From contig NZ_JBCFBA010000010.1 in NCBI RefSeq assembly GCF_038562415.1, positions 1-64,000 of the forward strand: a DNA stretch of 64,000 nt, given 5' to 3'. The notes below the pieces were generated by a model. That model was given only the letters and a program-made list of their open reading frames with translations, made no database searches and was not told where the DNA came from. The stretch's first letter is position 1; each line of letters starts with the position of its first letter. Of this stretch, positions 9,077 to 30,216 are shown piece by piece. This stretch comes from Solidesulfovibrio sp. (GTDB lineage Bacteria; Desulfobacterota; Desulfovibrionia; Desulfovibrionales; Desulfovibrionaceae). A program made the translations under genes and the position numbers.

Positions 9077-10000
9077 CTAGATTTTGGTCCGCCGGGCCAC
9101 GCCGAAAAGGCCCGTTGGCCGGATGGACAGGATGAGCAGCAAAATCGAAAAGGCGATGAGGTCGCGGAAGGTGGACGGGAAAAAGGCCACCACCATGATC
9201 TCCACGAACCCGAGCAGAAACCCGCCGGCAAAGGCCCCGGCGATGGAGCCGATGCCGCCGACCACCGCGGCGATGAAGGCCTTCCAGCCGATCAGCGCCC
9301 CCATGTAGGGGTCGAGCACCGGATAGGTCATGGCGAAGAAAAGCCCGGCCAGCCCGGCGAAGCCCGAGCCCAGCACGAAGGTGAAGACGATGACCGTGTC
9401 GGCCGGAATGCCCATGAGCGGCACGGCGAAGCGGTCGTAGGAGATGGCCCGCATGGCCATGCCGATCTTGGTGCGGGTGACGATGAAGTGCAGGAGCAGA
9501 AAGGACAGGATGGCCACGCCGATGACCATCAGCTTGATGTTGGTCACGGTGACGCCGAAAAGATTGTAGACCTGGGTCGGGATGAGCGTGGGGAAGCTCT
9601 TGCGGCTGGCCCCGAGCAGGGCCAGGTTGCCGTTTTCCAGGATCAGCCCGCACATCAGCGCCGTGATGACGACGTAGAGGCGGTTGACGCCCTTGCGCCG
9701 CAGCGGCCGATAGGCCACGCGCTCCAGGGTCACGCCGACCACGGCGGTCAGCAGCATGGTCAGCGGCACGGCCAGGGAAAGGACCAGCCAGCCGGGCAGG
9801 CCGGGGATGGCCCCGTACTTGCCAAGCAGGAAGGTGCACACGAAAAAGGCGATATAGGCCCCGACCATGAAAATGTCGCCGTGGGCGAAGTTGATCAAAA
9901 GCAGCACGCCGTAGACCAGGCAGTAGCCAAGGGCGATCAGGGAATAGAAACTTCCCCACTGCAGGGCGTTCAGCAGGTTTTGCAAGAGGCTTTGCAGCAA
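9077..10000 (-). CDS. livH: Branched-chain amino-acid ABC transporter, permease LivH
   Basis: A 307-residue inner-membrane permease. It carries the family-typical NALQWGSFYSLIALGYCLVYGVL start, INFAHGDIFMVGAY and the GIGSIAGAFAGG segment. The start appears to be TTG at 10000, with GGGGGTC upstream; the nearby ATG at 10020 is out of frame. An intergenic stem-loop separates it from livK, which is commonly more highly expressed than the permeases. Confidence 0.93.
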   Translation of the reverse strand: MLQSLLQNLLNALQWGSFYSLIALGYCLVYGVLLLINFAHGDIFMVGAYIAFFVCTFLLGKYGAIPGLPGWLVLSLAVPLTMLLTAVVGVTLERVAYRPLRRKGVNRLYVVITALMCGLILENGNLALLGASRKSFPTLIPTQVYNLFGVTVTNIKLMVIGVAILSFLLLHFIVTRTKIGMAMRAISYDRFAVPLMGIPADTVIVFTFVLGSGFAGLAGLFFAMTYPVLDPYMGALIGWKAFIAAVVGGIGSIAGAFAGGFLLGFVEIMVVAFFPSTFRDLIAFSILLLILSIRPTGLFGVARRTKI

Positions 10001-10074
10001 CGGAGACCCCCTTGGCGCATGTTGTGGCCTGTCCGGCGGGCGTGGCCGCCATCCAGGCGAAATGTTGCGGCATG

Positions 10075-10111
10075 GCGTCCGGGACGCGCGCCAAGGCGGC
10101 GTCCCGGACGC
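10075..10111 (-). promoter_or_regulatory. Perfect 13-bp inverted repeat between livK and livH
   Basis: GCGTCCGGGACGC (10075-10087) and its exact complement (10099-10111) form a stem with an 11-nt loop. There is no U-run, so full termination is unlikely. Such stems between a binding-protein gene and its permease genes often stabilise or attenuate the transcript, giving excess binding protein. That role is inferred here from position. Confidence 0.5.
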
Positions 10112-10141
10112 GCCGGAGGCCGGCCGACGGCCGGTCCGGGG

Positions 10142-11308
10142 CTACGGGCAAACGGACTTGTAGAAGGCGAACTTGCCGGCGTCGTCGATTTTCACCACCA
10201 CGGCGCACTTGATCGGGTCGTGGTCGCCCGTGGCCGGGTAGGACATGTCGCCGGTGATGCCCTCGAACTTCTTGATGCCGGCCATGGCCTTCATGAGGGC
10301 CTCGCGGTCCTTGGCCATGTCGCCGGTGATGGCGGGCAGGGTCTGGACGGCGGCGAGCATCAGGTTGGCGCCGTCCCAGGTGAGGGCGGCGACGTCATCG
10401 GGGGTCTTCTTGTAGAGCTTGGTGTACTCGTCGATGAATTCCTTGGTCTTGCCCTTGGCGCCGGCGGCGGCGTAGTGGGTGACGAAGAAATAGCCCTTGC
10501 AGTCGTCGCCGCAAAGCCCCATCAGGTCGCCGGAACCCCAGGAGTCGCTCCCGAGTACGGGCTTGTTGAAGCCCAGGGACTTGGCCTGCTTCACGACCAG
10601 CGGCACCTCGTTGTAGTACTGGGGCACGAACAGCACGTCGGCGCCGGACTTGGCGATGTTGGTCAGCTGGGCCGAGAAGTCCACGTCTTTGGTGGTGAAG
10701 GTCTCGAAGGCGACCACCGAGCCGGGGCCGTTGATCTTCTCGAAGGCGGCCTTGAAGTCCTCGGCCAGGCCCTTGGGGTAGTCGGAAGCGATATCGTAGA
10801 GGACGGCGGCCTTTTTGGCCTTGAATTCCTCGGAGGCGAACTTGGCGGCCGTGGGGCCCTGGAAGGTGTCCAGGAAGCAGCCGCGGAAGACGTAGGGGCG
10901 GTTTTTCGTGGTGTTGGGGTTGGTGGACCAGGGGGCCATCATCGGGGTCTTGAGGTCATTGGCGGCCTCGCCGGCGGGCACGGCCTGCTTGCTCGACTGG
11001 GGACCGACCATGCCCAGGACGCCATCCTGGGTGATGAGCTTGCGGGCGGTGGACAGGGCGGATTCGGCCTTGGACTCGTTGTCCTCGTAGATGAACTCCA
11101 CCAGGTACTTCTTGCCGCCCACTTCGATCCCACCGGCGTCATTGATCTTTTTTTTGAGCATTTCGGCGGCGTTTTTCGAGGATTCGCCAACGTCCGGAAT
11201 GTCGCCGGTCATGGGGATGTTAAACCCCAGTTTGATGGTGTCCGCGGCGCGGGCCGGGGCGGCCATCCCGAGGACGAGAAAAAGGGCAATGAGCCAGGAC
11301 CTTTTCAT
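10142..11308 (-). CDS. livK: Branched-chain amino-acid ABC transporter, periplasmic binding protein
   Basis: A 388-residue periplasmic protein that captures branched-chain (or related) amino acids for LivHMGF. A signal peptide (MKRSWLIALFLVLGMAAPARA) is likely cleaved after residue 21. The mature part starts with DTIKLGFNIPMTGDIPDVG and follows the type I periplasmic-binding fold (Peripla_BP_6), including GMVGPQSSKQAVPAGE and ALTWDGANLML. Internal cysteines (CFLDTF, CGDDCKG) could form disulfides. The exact ligand cannot be read from sequence. It is the first gene of the operon, with an AGGAGG site before the ATG. Confidence 0.93.
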   Translation of the reverse strand: MKRSWLIALFLVLGMAAPARAADTIKLGFNIPMTGDIPDVGESSKNAAEMLKKKINDAGGIEVGGKKYLVEFIYEDNESKAESALSTARKLITQDGVLGMVGPQSSKQAVPAGEAANDLKTPMMAPWSTNPNTTKNRPYVFRGCFLDTFQGPTAAKFASEEFKAKKAAVLYDIASDYPKGLAEDFKAAFEKINGPGSVVAFETFTTKDVDFSAQLTNIAKSGADVLFVPQYYNEVPLVVKQAKSLGFNKPVLGSDSWGSGDLMGLCGDDCKGYFFVTHYAAAGAKGKTKEFIDEYTKLYKKTPDDVAALTWDGANLMLAAVQTLPAITGDMAKDREALMKAMAGIKKFEGITGDMSYPATGDHDPIKCAVVVKIDDAGKFAFYKSVCP

Positions 11309-20692: not shown

Positions 20693-21604
20693 TCATTGTT
20701 CATCCGAAAAATAATCAGAATCGACCTTTTTAATTTCATATCGTTGCACAACAGAAACACCGACATTGTAATCGACCATAAGCTCGGTCAGCCGCTTCCC
20801 GTCAATCAATATTATCTTGGCGTCTATGGAACGAACAAAATCAGCCGCTTCCCTGGTAAAACACGATGTCGTTATAAAAATCCCCTTCTTCGCTTTCTTT
20901 CCCAGCAAGGCCCCGGCAAATTTCTGTATCTCCGGTCGGCCGACAGGATTCTCCCATTTCTTGGCCTGCACATAGATCACATCCAAACCGAGCTTATCTT
21001 CATTGATGATACCGTCGATGCCTTCGTCCGCACTTTTTCCGGTCAATGCCCCGGCATCCGTACGGGAATCGCCGTAGCCCATGGCCAGCAAGAGGTCGAC
21101 CACGAGTTTCTCGAAAAAATAGGCCGAGCTTCGGCGTATGTTTTCAACAAGCTCCCCGGACACTTCTTGCATCATTTTTTCGAAACCAAGATCAATATAT
21201 TCCTGCGGTGTTATGGCATCACCACCATTCACCACAGCCTCGCCGACGCCGGCCTTCTCCTTTTCACCTCGAAAGGCTCGAAACTCGGGATATCGAAAGA
21301 GATCCCTAATGGTCAGCAGCTCAGGAGCTTCACGCAGGAGTACGCGCCCTCTGTCGGTAATACGGTACACGCCTCGTTGCGGTGAATCCACCAGTCCGGC
21401 CTGCTTCAAATGTGTCTTCGCCCAGGCGACTCTATTCCCAAAAATACGCTGTCTTCCACTAGGGAGCAGTTGCTGGATTTCCGTCTCTGATAATTTGAAA
21501 TATTCATTTAGGCAATTTGTTATTTCGGCATTGTTTTTGGATTGTCCATCTTCAAGACAGCGAAGCAAGGGAAGCATAATTGATTGGAAGTCTGGAATGG
21601 CCAC
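20693..21604 (-). CDS. mrr: Mrr-type methylation-dependent restriction endonuclease
   Basis: A 303-residue type IV restriction enzyme predicted to cleave methylated foreign DNA. It has an N-terminal winged-helix domain (VAIPDFQSIMLPLLRCLEDG..., residues 1-95) and a C-terminal Mrr catalytic domain. The PD-(D/E)xK-like core is visible as DEGIDG (193-198) followed by YVQAKKW (211-217, Gln213 and Lys215). The GTG at 21604 is chosen because Mrr proteins start at this point and GGAGG lies 10 nt upstream. GC content is clearly lower than in neighbours, a sign of horizontal gain. Confidence 0.9.
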   Translation of the reverse strand: MAIPDFQSIMLPLLRCLEDGQSKNNAEITNCLNEYFKLSETEIQQLLPSGRQRIFGNRVAWAKTHLKQAGLVDSPQRGVYRITDRGRVLLREAPELLTIRDLFRYPEFRAFRGEKEKAGVGEAVVNGGDAITPQEYIDLGFEKMMQEVSGELVENIRRSSAYFFEKLVVDLLLAMGYGDSRTDAGALTGKSADEGIDGIINEDKLGLDVIYVQAKKWENPVGRPEIQKFAGALLGKKAKKGIFITTSCFTREAADFVRSIDAKIILIDGKRLTELMVDYNVGVSVVQRYEIKKVDSDYFSDEQ

Positions 21605-21657
21605 TGCGCATCTGCCTCCGGCTTGCAAAAGGAAACCGCTCCAACGCTGGCCCAACC

Positions 21658-21685
21658 AATATCCACAATCGGATAAGCATTGCAA
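21658..21685 (-). promoter_or_regulatory. Possible mrr promoter
   Basis: On the minus strand TTGCAA (21680-21685) and GATATT (21658-21663) are 16 nt apart, about 55 nt upstream of the mrr GTG. Matches are moderate. Confidence 0.3.
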
Positions 21686-21772
21686 GCCGGAAAGAGCGAC
21701 GGCGAAAAGGCACATGTTTTTTCTGGTCGTGCCTCCTCCCTCCGGAAGCCTTTGGATGAAAGGGCGGACCGT

Positions 21773-25301: not shown

Positions 25302-25348
25302 GGGAGGTCCAGGAGGGGGTGACCCCCTCCTGGCCGCCGGAGGCTTCC
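25302..25348 (-). repeat. REP-like palindromic element, copy 1
   Basis: Read on the minus strand it has the arm GAAGCCTCCGGCGGCCAG, a central hairpin of G-rich then C-rich bases, and the closing arm CTGGACCTCCC. The same arms occur at 27512-27558 and 55312-55358. It lies between two convergent genes. Confidence 0.85.
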
Positions 25349-26573: not shown

Positions 26574-26750
26574 ATGAAAATCACCCTTCCCCTGTGCCTG
26601 CTGGCCCTGGCCCTGGCCGCCGGACTGTTCGCCCTGGGCCGGGCCGCCCCGGCCGAGGCGCTTAGCGCCTACCGCGACGCCGTCCAGGCCGCGCCCCAAA
26701 GCTGCCTGGGCTGCGGCGGCTGCAACTGCCTCAGCTGCGGCTGCGGTTGA
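26574..26750 (+). CDS. Tiny exported cysteine-rich peptide
   Basis: A 58-residue protein 11 nt after the CBS gene. Residues 1-29 form a signal peptide (MKITLPLCLLALALAAGLFA, cleavage near AEA). The predicted mature part of about 29 residues ends QSCLGCGGCNCLSCGCG. Six cysteines lie at 44, 47, 50, 52, 55 and 57, a CxxCxxCxCxxCxC spacing. This could bind metal, form disulfides or be a modified peptide; no known family is recognised. No tailoring enzyme is adjacent. Confidence 0.6.
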   Translation: MKITLPLCLLALALAAGLFALGRAAPAEALSAYRDAVQAAPQSCLGCGGCNCLSCGCG

Positions 26751-26762
26751 TATCGGGGAAGC

Positions 26763-27494
26763 CTAATCGCCGCCCGGCTCGGTGACGGCGCTGACGGCGA
26801 ACCCGGGCAGGTCGATTCCGGCGGCCGGGCGCTCGGAGAGGATCTCCAGGCGCGGCCCGTCCTCGCGGCCCGGGCGCAGGGCATAGACCCGCCGGGCCCG
26901 GTCGGCGAAATGGTCCACCGGATGGTGGCTGATGTAGAGCACCTGCAGGCCCAGGCGGTCGGCGATGTCGGCGATGAGCCGCACGAAGCCGGGCACCAGG
27001 TCGGGCCGCAGCCAGCAGTCCTGCTCGTCGAGGACCAGAAACGGCCGGTGGCTGGCCGGGTCGAGCTGGGACAGGGCGATCAGGCGCAGGCCCACCGACA
27101 GGATGTTGCACACCGACCCGCCCTGGCCGGTCAGGATGTCCTCGGTGCGGCCGTCCTGCTCCATGTCGAATTCGATAAAAAGCCGGTTGCCCTTGACCTC
27201 CCGGCGCGAGACGACCTTGCGGTCCTGGCCGAGGATCTCGCGCACGGCGTGGCTGAGGTCCGTCTCGACCTCGTCGAGGACGGCGCCGAACAGTTCGCGG
27301 GTCAGCTCCTCCAGTCGGGCGGCCACGCGCGGGGCCATGTCCAAAAAGCCCGAAACCGCGCCCACGGCCCCGCGGCAGGCCAGAAATTCGCGCACCTGGC
27401 CCTCGGCCACGCCCGAAAGCCGGTCCAGGCGCCGCGTCAGGTCCCGGCGCGCCCGCGCTGTTTCCTGCCAATCGGGGAGTGGGGACTGTTCCAT
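26763..27494 (-). CDS. Rad50/SMC-like ATPase, C-terminal half (split protein)
   Basis: A 243-residue protein containing only the C-terminal ATPase lobe of a Rad50/SbcC-type ABC ATPase. Visible are a short helical start (1-40), the signature-like TGQGGSVCNILSVGLRL (122-138), Walker B PFLVLDEQD (151-159) and an H-loop ISHH (188-191). There is no Walker A and no CxxC hook. The missing N-terminal lobe is encoded separately at 28852-30216 in the same cluster. The ATG at 27494 follows AAGGTG. It is separated from the upstream coiled-coil gene by 106 nt containing a REP-like element. Confidence 0.8.
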   Translation of the reverse strand: MEQSPLPDWQETARARRDLTRRLDRLSGVAEGQVREFLACRGAVGAVSGFLDMAPRVAARLEELTRELFGAVLDEVETDLSHAVREILGQDRKVVSRREVKGNRLFIEFDMEQDGRTEDILTGQGGSVCNILSVGLRLIALSQLDPASHRPFLVLDEQDCWLRPDLVPGFVRLIADIADRLGLQVLYISHHPVDHFADRARRVYALRPGREDGPRLEILSERPAAGIDLPGFAVSAVTEPGGD

Positions 27495-27511
27495 AAAAAA
27501 CACCTTGGGGG

Positions 27512-27558
27512 GGAAGCCTCCGGCGGCCAGGCGGGGGTCACCCCCTCCTGGACCTCCC
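27512..27558 (+). repeat. REP-like palindromic element, copy 2
   Basis: Same arms as copies 1 and 3, with central GCGGGGGTCACCCCCTC. It sits inside the split-Rad50 cluster, between the coiled-coil gene and the C-terminal ATPase gene, where a strong mRNA hairpin could modulate expression of the last gene. Confidence 0.85.
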
Positions 27559-27600
27559 GGCCGGGGGAGGCCGTTTCCCTTTTCCTGTGCTGCGCCCGCG

Positions 27601-27921
27601 TTACCCTTCGAACTGGCGTTCCACGGCTTCCAGGTCGCGGCGCACGCCCTGGATGTGCTCGCGATACTCGGCCACAAGCCGCGCGTTTTCCTCGCGCAGG
27701 CGGGTGAGCAGAGCCGCCAGCTCGGCCGGGTCGGCCGTGCCGTACTCGGCCCTGGCCCGGGCCTCCAGCTCGGCCAACTGGCGCGTGAGGTTGGCCAGGT
27801 CCTGCTCGGCCCGGACCTTGTCGTCGCGCAGGCGTTCGTATTCGGCCTTGAGCCCCTCCAGTTCGCGCTGGGGGCCGGCGTCGGCCGCTTGGGGCTGGGG
27901 GCGGCTATTTGTCGGCGGCAT
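27601..27921 (-). CDS. Small coiled-coil protein of the split-Rad50 cluster
   Basis: A 106-residue protein. After a Pro/Gln-rich start (1-20), residues 22-104 are almost pure coiled coil (QRELEGLKAEYERLRDDKVR, LANLTRQLAELEARARAEYG, LTRLREENARLVAEYREHI). It overlaps the phosphoesterase stop by 17 nt, with GGAGGTGACCC before the ATG, so it is translated with it. Position suggests it may supply or stabilise the arm of the split ATPase. No enzymatic motif. Confidence 0.75.
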   Translation of the reverse strand: MPPTNSRPQPQAADAGPQRELEGLKAEYERLRDDKVRAEQDLANLTRQLAELEARARAEYGTADPAELAALLTRLREENARLVAEYREHIQGVRRDLEAVERQFEG

Positions 27922-28855
27922 GGGTCACCTCCCGGTAGAGCTCCCAGATGACGGCCGTCTCCGGGCTTTCGGGGTTGAGGTTGGCGCGCAGGAATTCCCC
28001 GAGCCCGGCCCCCTCGCGGGTGCGCCGCCAGGCCAGCCTGGCCAGGCCCTCCAGGAAGCGCGACGGCTCGGCCGCGGCCTGGGCCTCCTCGGGCGGGAAG
28101 TCCTGGTCCGGAAAGACTTCCGCGAAGGGCCGGTGGGGAATGGGCCAAAATTCCAGGTCCACCGCCCCGGGCCGCCAGATCGCGGCGGCGGGCACGCGCT
28201 CCATGGCCCGGCGGTTGAACTTGAGCCGGGTGATGTTGCCCGGGTTGGCCCAGCGGGTGCCGCCGGCCGCGACCGTCGGCTGGGGCCGATGGATGTGGCC
28301 GTTGATCACCCAGTCCAGGCCCGGGATCTCGCGGATCTTGACGTGCTTGTCCAGAAAATCGGGAAAACCCACGTTGTGGTGGGCAAGCCACACGCTTTCC
28401 TCGCCGGGTGCCTTTTCCACCGAGGCGGGCAGGGGCGCGCCGTCGGGCGAGGCGCCGAGGACGGCCGTGCCCGTGGGGCTGACGAGCCTGGCGAAAAGCC
28501 CGGGCTCGGCCAGCACCGTGGCCACGCCGGCGGCACGCAGCACGGCCAGCGACGTGTCGTCGGTGAAGCGCGCCTGGTACTTGTCGTGGTTGCCCACCAG
28601 GACAAAGGGCCGATGCGGCCGAAACAACTCGATGAGCGCCACGATGAGCGCGTTGGGGTTCTCGCGCGGCCAGTGGAAGAGGTCGCCGAGGACCACCGGC
28701 GCCAGGCGATGGGCGGCGGCATGCTCCAGGCAGGCGGCCAGCTTGGCCAGCACGTCGTCCATGTAGGAATCGAGGCGCTGCATGGGCGGCGTGGCGGCCA
28801 CGTGGGGGTCGGGGACAAGCAGCAGCCCGTCGGCTTCGAGGCGGGGCAGGCTCAC
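27905..28855 (-). CDS. Mre11/SbcD-like metallophosphoesterase
   Basis: A 316-residue calcineurin-type phosphoesterase. Motifs in order: PDPH (Asp16, His18), VVLGDLFH (57-61), VGNHD (87-91), LAHHN (158-161) and NGHIHRP (185-191), giving the usual two-metal site. The C-terminal 70 residues are helical, where Mre11 proteins bind the Rad50 coil base. Its GTG overlaps the stop of the N-terminal ATPase gene by four bases (GTGA), with GGGAGG upstream. Pairing with Rad50-like halves supports a nuclease role in DNA ends or repair. Confidence 0.85.
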   Translation of the reverse strand: MSLPRLEADGLLLVPDPHVAATPPMQRLDSYMDDVLAKLAACLEHAAAHRLAPVVLGDLFHWPRENPNALIVALIELFRPHRPFVLVGNHDKYQARFTDDTSLAVLRAAGVATVLAEPGLFARLVSPTGTAVLGASPDGAPLPASVEKAPGEESVWLAHHNVGFPDFLDKHVKIREIPGLDWVINGHIHRPQPTVAAGGTRWANPGNITRLKFNRRAMERVPAAAIWRPGAVDLEFWPIPHRPFAEVFPDQDFPPEEAQAAAEPSRFLEGLARLAWRRTREGAGLGEFLRANLNPESPETAVIWELYREVTHAADK

Positions 28856-30216
28856 GGCGTGCCTCCCTCGGACGCCCCGTGGCCGTGGCCGCCGCCGAGG
28901 AAGGCCTCGGCGGACAGCTCGCCCCCGCACAGCGGACACGAGCCCAGGGCGGCCAGCCGCGAGGCGATGCGGCCGGAAAGATCGTCCAGGGCCTGGCCGC
29001 GCCGGGCCAGCGTCGCCCCGGCGGCCTCCACGGCCCGGCGGGCGCCGCCAAGGGCCGCGAGCAGTTCGGCCAGGGGCCGGGTGTCGGCCAGGGACGGCGG
29101 CCCGGCCAGGGGGGAAAGGGCGGCGCTTCTGGCCGCCAGGCGATCGGCGGCCGCCCGGGCCGTTTCCAGACGGCGGGTGGCTTGTGCCAGAACGGCCGTG
29201 TCGCCGAGTGTTGGCGGCGGGGTCAGCCCGGCCAGGGCGACGCTTTTGGCCCGGGCCTCGGTCAGGGCCAGCCCCAGGCGCCCCCGCTCCGCCGCGCGCC
29301 GGGCCAGCAAGGCCGTGTCGGCCAGGGACGGCGGCGCGGCCAGACGCGAGGCGGCCGCGCGCCGGGCCAGGGCCGCCGCGCGTCGCCGCGCCAGCGACCG
29401 CTCCTGGGCGAGGCTGGCGGCCAGGGAGGCCGTGTCGGCCAGGGACGGCGGCGCGGCAAGCCCGGAAAGGGCCTGACCGGCGCGCGAAAGCGCCTCCCGG
29501 CGGCGTTGGCGGGCCTCCCGCTCGGCCAGATGGACGCCGAGCGCCGCGATGCGCCGGTCCGAGGCGGTCAGATCGGCTTCCAGGGCCGCCGCCCGTTCCA
29601 GGCGCAGGTCCAGTTCCGGCAGGGGCGCCAGGCGGTCGAGGGCGGCGGCCAGGTCAGCCAGCCGCTTCTCCTGGCGTTTTTTCTCGGTGGCCGCCTTGCG
29701 GATGCGGTCCGTCAGCCTGTTTTGCATGGCGATCAGGTGGGCCGCTTCGGTTGCGGCGGCGAAAAACCCCGACAGGACCGAGCCGGGCTTGTCGAGCAGA
29801 AACACCGGTTCGCGCTGGTTGCCGATGTGCACGTCCACGGCGTCGCCGCCCTCGATAGGCACGCTGGAAAGCCCGAGTATCCGGGTGATTTCCTCGGGCG
29901 GCGTGCGGCCGAATTTGGCGAAGACCTCGGGTTCGGCAGCCCCGGGTCGGGTCAACTCGTAGAGGGCGTATTTCGGCCGGCGCACCCAGGTGACGACGGT
30001 GCCGTCGTCGAGTTCGGCCGTGACCCGGGCCTCGGCGGCGCCGTGGCGGATGACGTGGCGCGGCGCGGGGTTTTCGGCCAGGCAGCGCAGGGCCTCGACC
30101 ACGGCGGACTTGCCGGTGTTGTTGGGGCCGGTGAGGACGGTCAGCCCGGGCGACAGGTCGAGGGTCGTCCGGGCATGGGCCATGAAATCGGTCAGCATCA
30201 GTCGGGTGATCGCCAC
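28852..30216 (-). CDS. Rad50/SMC-like ATPase, N-terminal half ending at a zinc-hook motif (split protein)
   Basis: A 454-residue protein with the N-terminal lobe of a Rad50-type ATPase: ITRLMLTDFMAH and Walker A GPNNTGKS (30-37). Residues 165-425 form an Ala/Arg/Leu-rich helical arm that contains four exact 39-residue repeats, each opening with PP(S/T)L(A/G)DT (at 256, 295, 334 and 373). The arm ends with CPLCGGEL (Cys427, Cys430), like the Rad50 zinc hook, and the protein stops 24 residues later. No signature or Walker B is present. A GTG start at 30216 fits the fold; its Shine-Dalgarno is weak. Confidence 0.82.
   Translation of the reverse strand: MAITRLMLTDFMAHARTTLDLSPGLTVLTGPNNTGKSAVVEALRCLAENPAPRHVIRHGAAEARVTAELDDGTVVTWVRRPKYALYELTRPGAAEPEVFAKFGRTPPEEITRILGLSSVPIEGGDAVDVHIGNQREPVFLLDKPGSVLSGFFAAATEAAHLIAMQNRLTDRIRKAATEKKRQEKRLADLAAALDRLAPLPELDLRLERAAALEADLTASDRRIAALGVHLAEREARQRRREALSRAGQALSGLAAPPSLADTASLAASLAQERSLARRRAAALARRAAASRLAAPPSLADTALLARRAAERGRLGLALTEARAKSVALAGLTPPPTLGDTAVLAQATRRLETARAAADRLAARSAALSPLAGPPSLADTRPLAELLAALGGARRAVEAAGATLARRGQALDDLSGRIASRLAALGSCPLCGGELSAEAFLGGGHGHGASEGGTP

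Follow-up and report, generated by a model that had tools for sequence, protein, structure and literature searches.

A four-gene cluster in Solidesulfovibrio that probably encodes an Mre11–Rad50 complex with Rad50 split at the hook side

We analyzed a 64,000-nucleotide stretch of the genome of Solidesulfovibrio sp. (contig NZ_JBCFBA010000010.1, positions 1 to 64,000; hereafter the window), which carries, as read from its open reading frames (ORFs), a cluster of four minus-strand genes that follow one another head to tail at 30216–26763. The cluster begins with N (28852..30216, GTG start), a Rad50-like N-terminal half of 454 amino acids (aa) comprising an N-lobe, an arm of about 39-aa repeats and a C-terminal hook, followed by M (27905..28855, GTG start), an Mre11/SbcD-like phosphoesterase of 316 aa. 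X (27601..27921) is a helical protein of 106 aa, and C (26763..27494) is a Rad50-like C-terminal half of 243 aa with neither Walker A nor hook. N and M overlap by 4 bp and M and X by 17 bp, whereas X and C are separated by a 106-bp spacer. An earlier note on this DNA had placed the four genes here, described the first three as overlapping and proposed a split Rad50–Mre11 complex; the positions and overlaps were confirmed, and profile matches, gene co-occurrence and gene fusion now support the proposal. Judging from sequence, we put at roughly 80% the probability that the cluster encodes a four-subunit Mre11–Rad50 complex, in which Rad50 is naturally split at the hook side (and circularly permuted in homologues) and which likely serves general DNA-end processing.

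In N, the Walker A motif GPNNTGKS (residues 30–37; 30106..30129, minus strand, as for all features of the cluster) precedes an arm (28939..29751) that opens with a first helix at about residues 156–197, read by eye, and continues as Pro-Pro (PP)-jointed repeats up to the hook CPLCG (residues 427–431; 28924..28938). Residues G30, N32, N33, G35, K36 and S37 are invariant in the 28-row N alignment, as is the hook Cys pair, two hookless loci having been excluded from the rows. CPLCGGEL starts 28 residues before the C-terminus, and 23 residues remain after CPLCG. C carries GQGGS as the equivalent of the ATP-binding cassette (ABC) signature (residues 123–127; 27114..27128), the Walker B motif LVLDE (residues 153–157; 27024..27038) and an H-loop with His190–His191 in SHH (26922..26927); G125, G126, R137, D156, E157, Q184 and H190 are invariant in 28 rows drawn from chromosomes, plasmids and phages. 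The description of both halves in the earlier note thus held, with the arm additionally recognized as jointed.

M also retained every Mre11-type motif previously ascribed to it. Motif I, D16-x-H18 (28802..28810), and motif III, GNHD at residues 88–91 (28583..28594), are invariant in 26 rows, and so are G186, H187 and H189 of motif V, GHIH at residues 186–189 (28289..28300). The series D-x-H, GD, GNHD, H and GHxH, which we take to correspond to the named Mre11/SbcD phosphodiesterase motifs, is present in 26/26 rows. A C-terminal extension at about residues 265–310 (27926..28063) contains conserved residues, with F267, L271, L274, T279, G282, G284, L285 and L306 invariant in the same alignment, and may form Rad50-binding helices at the base of the arm. 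Two genomes in which neither N nor C was found (G023 and G037) each carry an orphan M locus; with 14 query rows these two loci gave no match to the extension, although a control locus did, and the G023 copy may be truncated because a stop lies inside its match.

Profile searches placed N and C on the two Rad50 lobes and M on Mre11, while single sequences gave weaker results. The N profile matched Rad50 N-lobe chains in the PDB (3qkr_A, 8e-9; 1f2t_A, 2e-8), and a separate stretch of it matched two solved Rad50 zinc hooks (6zff, 1e-5; 1l8d, 2e-4); the Pfam hook model scored below its cut-off on N (14.2 versus 24.3 bits). As a single sequence, N matched AAA_23 (5e-8), an archaeal SMC-related family (3e-12) and phrog_16465, a phage "exonuclease" family (1e-25). 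For C, a profile of 28 rows including fused and phage members returned Rad50 C-half chains first, before any SMC (3qkr_B, 2e-11; 1ii8_B; 1f2t_B), across residues 29–210, while the single sequence gave no firm match; an OLD-family structure and a model of an ABC transporter came closest, each near 0.002. In hhalign comparisons with eight SbcC proteins, N aligned at the SbcC N-lobe with 97.8%, C aligned in the expected register with E 0.035, and X and M gave no match. The M profile matched Mre11/SbcD at 2e-6; the single sequence matched Metallophos (6e-7) and PdeM (2e-5) and failed the curated SbcD model TIGR00619 (E 0.042, 13.7 bits versus a cut-off of 77.65). The Rad50 entries matched by N and C hold both lobes as separate chains A and B, so that the natural break between the two genes resembles the break of the crystal constructs. 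Such Rad50 fragments were reportedly made apart and reconstitute a working head.

Strong evidence for the union of the two halves comes from large plasmids. A match to C was present in 21 plasmid records, 12 of which were fetched and examined (plasmids of 0.27–1.3 Mb from Alteromonas, Vibrio, Bosea (2), Pseudomonas (3), Variovorax, Aeromonas, Rhizobium, Acidiphilium and Methylorubrum). In all 12 loci a single ORF held C first and N second, with CxxC 11–62 residues from the C-terminus and a strict Walker A pattern in 10/12; X lay upstream in 11/12 and M downstream in 11/12. By its domain order, this fusion corresponds to a Rad50 whose chain has been cut at the hook and whose original termini have been joined. 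The earlier note had raised the prospect of homologues with the N-half joined to a different signature domain; the partner here was C itself. Because plasmids fuse both in one permuted gene, N and C very probably form one ABC head. An alternative is that N partners M, and C something else, with no head in common. In its favour, C is unlinked in some genomes: in two of the same genus (G003 and G011) it lies about 6 kb off and inverted, yet is retained, and in G354 and G355 N-M-X stand together, separate from C. Against this very improbable arrangement stand the plasmid fusions, the motifs, by which neither N nor C has a complete ATP site, and the presence of both in every positive relative described below (N in part in some).

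Next, we analyzed co-occurrence among relatives. N, M, X and C were all found as separate frames in 22/59 relatives, namely all 14 same-genus genomes (its own included), each with one strong match, and 8 other family members. N was seen only partly at contig ends in some of the 22, with G018 showing only its last part; a weak C (G046), a weak N (G019) and the two orphan M copies were not counted. When the C alignment was used to scan a single genome from each species, 129 relatives were returned, of which 80 loci from other genomes were retained, mainly from Desulfobacterota and Planctomycetota. All four genes stood in the order N-M-X-C on the same strand in 66/80 loci, with an N-M overlap in 58 and an M-X overlap in 59; several of the remaining 14 are cut off where the contig ends, and some contain only C. 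When ten genomes, either of this kind or for comparison, were searched for N, it was found in 7 (3/5 planctomycetes with C alone, where N lay elsewhere in the genome, G360, G361 and the comparison genomes G362 and G363). Since 22/59 relatives have the set and 66/80 loci keep its order, the cluster is not a broken gene. A decayed or mis-assembled sbcC lying in pieces would account for N and C combined being shorter than the eight SbcC proteins compared, but the identical break, the order and the mostly overlapping frames recur across loci, M sits between the halves and X is conserved. We therefore rejected this explanation, which retains next to no credibility.

We then examined other SbcD-like nucleases, called with TIGR00619 at E up to 1e-8, together with PF13558 (SbcC_Walker_B) at 1e-3. 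The earlier note had left it to be seen whether a canonical sbcCD exists elsewhere in the genome; the genome gave neither a PF13558 match at 1e-3 nor an SbcD match at 1e-8. SbcD-like nucleases occurred in 1/22 split-positive versus 31/37 split-negative relatives (p 1e-9), in 0/8 versus 9/13 one-per-genus family members (p 0.005) and in 0/15 versus 151/281 genomes of a phylum sample (p 1.5e-5); all p values ignore phylogeny, and treating genomes as independent makes the tests look stronger than they are. The sole split-positive relative with a match, G007, has only a 94-aa frame with a stop. Four families (f1, f9, f53 and f91) hold split-positive and SbcD-positive genomes side by side. In 9/10 fetched loci with an SbcD-like match, the adjoining gene encodes a large ABC ATPase, which supports the weaker matches as real nucleases of this kind. 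This distribution suggests that one Mre11–Rad50 type was replaced by another.

Mutual exclusion with PF13558 had been considered as further evidence and was dropped, since two split-positive phylum genomes carry both and the best PF13558 loci mostly look unlike SbcC. As an observation in its own right, most rows of the ten best PF13558 loci in the phylum (L220–L229), read by eye, resemble what we take to be MukB/JetC rather than SbcC, a trap for SbcC counts.

The earlier note had left the role open between repair, phage defence and DNA-end processing. That split-set genomes lack SbcD-like nucleases suggests a general repair role, or end processing, rather than defence, given that the set seems to replace another Mre11–Rad50. 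We consider it unlikely that the cluster is an anti-phage or anti-plasmid defence system of the Lamassu or Gabija kind, in which the Rad50-like part would act as sensor and the Mre11-like nuclease as effector. N does match 74 PADLOC models (E up to 1), the best being GajA and LmuB (1e-8); of the MADS proteins, mad3 matches N over 250 residues (1.5e-5) and mad8 matches C at 0.007; the set is patchy in occurrence, and an Mrr-type restriction enzyme is encoded about 5 kb away. However, most of the 25 PADLOC matches listed for N span just the first 45–80 residues, M has none, and no system model was matched at full length by both ATPase and effector. The nearest neighbouring genes, moreover, encode a histidine kinase, a CBS protein and an amylase-family enzyme, all 14 same-genus genomes hold the set, and phages themselves carry it, which is weak evidence.

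Several observations weigh against the assignment to Mre11–Rad50. By score, N is no closer to Rad50 than to SMC: SMC6 heads (3e-9) top the PDB search with the N profile, and the archaeal SMC-related family ranks first for N in NCBIfam. The match of C to Rad50 depends on phage and fused members in the profile; a 36-row chromosomal C profile matched only a cohesin head (8e-4), with SbcC at 0.035, and the best PDB match of the window C is an OLD-family protein (0.0026). The C signature is [QTKRN]GG[SAG] and not LSGGE, the usual Rad50/SbcC ABC signature. The window M scores better with the PdeM model than with SbcD, and in 6/12 plasmid loci, all gammaproteobacterial, the gene in the M slot lacks GNHD and GHxH, so that nuclease activity is not always kept; the M genes of the other six have both motifs. 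The distribution of the set is patchy, with C present in 15/296 genomes of the phylum sample and 17/244 Planctomycetota. Most SbcD-like matches lie below the curated cut-off, only 3/59 and 63/296 genomes lying above it, where the contrast shrinks to 0/22 versus 3/37 (p 0.29) and 0/15 versus 63/281 (p 0.047). Finally, two split-positive phylum genomes (G301 and G339) also have a PF13558 match.

The set is also encoded by phages. In Bacillus phage vB_BboS-125, N is gp32, X is gp34 and C is gp35, and M is unannotated; this Mre11-like gene lies at 9247–10227 of the fetched locus (L143; phrog_100, 3e-21). The order N-X-C-M was seen in 27/27 viral contigs retrieved with the C of vB_BboS-125, which are not independent because all are kin of one query (56–100% identity). 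Scans of viral contigs with the C alignment and with a fused protein gave no match, and a scan with the phage N returned that phage only. The signature differs between the groups, being QGGS in 76, TGGS in 3 and QGGA in 1 of the 80 chromosomal C proteins, and RGGG in 23 and NGGG in 4 of the 27 phage ones. In the C-lobe tree, whose rows include two near-identical Bacillota metagenome-assembled genomes and one labelled Myxococcota, all phage rows group on a single branch (97/98), and the chromosomal rows have a branch of their own (100/99); rows of the fused plasmid proteins fall between them as a grade rather than a demonstrated clade, several on long branches.

We further examined the arm. PP occurs in the arm of the window N at residues 256, 295, 333 and 373, and among N arms 109/129 PP spacings are 38–40 residues, a further 14 lying near multiples of 39. 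Autocorrelation, with 15 shuffles per set, peaked at 39 in 56 arms and, weakly, at 40 in 11 plasmid arms; in 27 phage arms it peaked at 47, with a score inflated because these arms are near-copies. Eight SbcC arms instead gave heptad-type steps of 7, 14, 10 and 21. CxxC lies 19–43 residues from the end of N in 64/66 N-M-X-C loci (CPxC in 60), two loci (L122 and L141) being without any. Across 54 loci with a hook, its position clusters at 379–394, 418–435, 459–470 and 501–509, with singles at 536 and 548. Arm length thus looks countable, changing in steps of about one repeat.

X showed no such variation. Over the same 54 loci its length was 97–124 aa (standard deviation (SD) 5.6), against hook positions of 379 to 548 (SD 49), with a weak positive correlation (r 0.36). 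Because arm length varies and X barely does, X is not a return strand matched in length to the arm; we rejected it as a full-length second arm, and the earlier suggestion that the small protein completes a short second arm went unsupported. A YGTxD turn is conserved in X between two helical stretches, as read by eye from the alignment.

Several features align the cluster with Mre11–Rad50/SbcCD of the Pyrococcus type (1f2t, 1ii8, 3qkr): each Rad50 lobe has its counterpart in N or C, an Mre11-type nuclease adjoins them and the hook is CPxCG. The usual picture of Rad50 is a single chain in the order head–arm–hook–arm–head. In contrast, the split system has its lobes in separate genes or fused as C-N. 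Its hook lies close to the end of the chain and no return arm follows, jointed 39-aa repeats take the place of an antiparallel heptad coiled coil in the arm, the signature is QGGS, and protein X is additional. Relatives without the split set also pair a nuclease with an ABC ATPase, in loci that we take to be of the SbcEF (YhaO/YhaN) type: in 9/10 loci a GNHD protein of 356–499 aa stands beside an ATPase frame of 767–1290 aa, some frames running off the fetched stretch or contig, and the locus in G007 (L248) has neither. Unlike the split set, these have a one-piece ATPase, and the CxxC pattern used found no hook in the fetched loci; alongside the split set, in the two samples, the type appears only as the stop-containing fragment in G007. 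Phage members are held by separate PHROG families, phrog_16465 (exonuclease) for N, phrog_18563 (unknown) for X, phrog_15167 (ATPase) for C and phrog_100 (SbcD-like) for M, and differ from the chromosomal set in gene order, arm period and signature, which is [RN]GGG. Mimivirus-type Mre11/Rad50 fusion proteins are reported as another rearranged Mre11–Rad50 (PMC3175470), with the nuclease joined to the ATPase there and Rad50 itself divided or permuted here. SbcC and SbcD are reported to be near-universal in jumbo phages (PMC7824862). Among the papers listed in literature searches, none was seen to describe Rad50 in split or permuted form; the ABC ATPase classification by Krishnan et al. 2020 (10.1093/nar/gkaa726) may cover these proteins.

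We propose the following arrangement for the split Mre11–Rad50 complex. N would supply lobe I (Walker A and Q-loop), the jointed arm and the zinc hook near its end, and C would supply lobe II (signature, Walker B and H-loop) as well as a short helix whose probable partner, at the base, is the first helix of the N arm. Together they would make one ABC head. In a pair of such heads, ATP would be sandwiched with the N Walker A motif on one side and the C signature (GG) on the other, and the hook would join two N arms. The C-terminal helices of M would bind the arm base, and M would cut DNA ends once an ATP-driven movement admits them; X may bind at one fixed place or as several copies. The complex would likely take over general DNA-end processing from SbcCD or SbcEF. 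An outstanding question in Rad50 biology is how the hook senses the ATP state of the head. A bolder proposal, for which we see the odds as about even, is that the set represents a distinct old branch of Mre11–Rad50 that is open at the hook, with a heterodimeric (or permuted) head and no covalent return arm. Its arm would be a ruler of 39-residue proline-jointed units, varying in number between species, on which X docks, and head-to-hook signalling would pass through a single jointed strand; it would be the main Mre11–Rad50 of its hosts and would be shared with phages and large plasmids.

Around the cluster, the encoded neighbours include, besides those named above, an AraC-type regulator, and the CBS gene product is a CBS-domain protein. 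The GC content of the four genes is 0.71–0.75 versus 0.68 for the window, and that of third codon positions is 0.87–0.91 versus 0.92 in one neighbouring gene. The spacer between X and C holds a palindrome-like dispersed repeat (CCAGGAGGGGGTGACCCCC...) at 27516–27551, which recurs at 25309–25344, 2 kb away; its pattern has 70 matches genome-wide (≤2 mismatches; both arms of one copy may each count), and a reversed control has none. The Mrr-type restriction endonuclease gene lies at 20693–21715. Just downstream of C, on the opposite strand, a small ORF at about 26574–26750, its start codon picked by eye, has a signal-like start and a Cys-rich end (CLGCGGCNCLSCGCG).

In summary, the split set is found in distant bacteria, large plasmids and phages, and apparently stands in for the usual version. 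In the course of evolution the return arm seems to have been lost and the chain to have been divided or permuted, with the lobes, the hook and the nuclease kept, which would make the set a natural test of which Rad50 connections are needed. Moreover, some bacteria that searches score as having neither SbcCD nor SbcEF may still possess an Mre11–Rad50.

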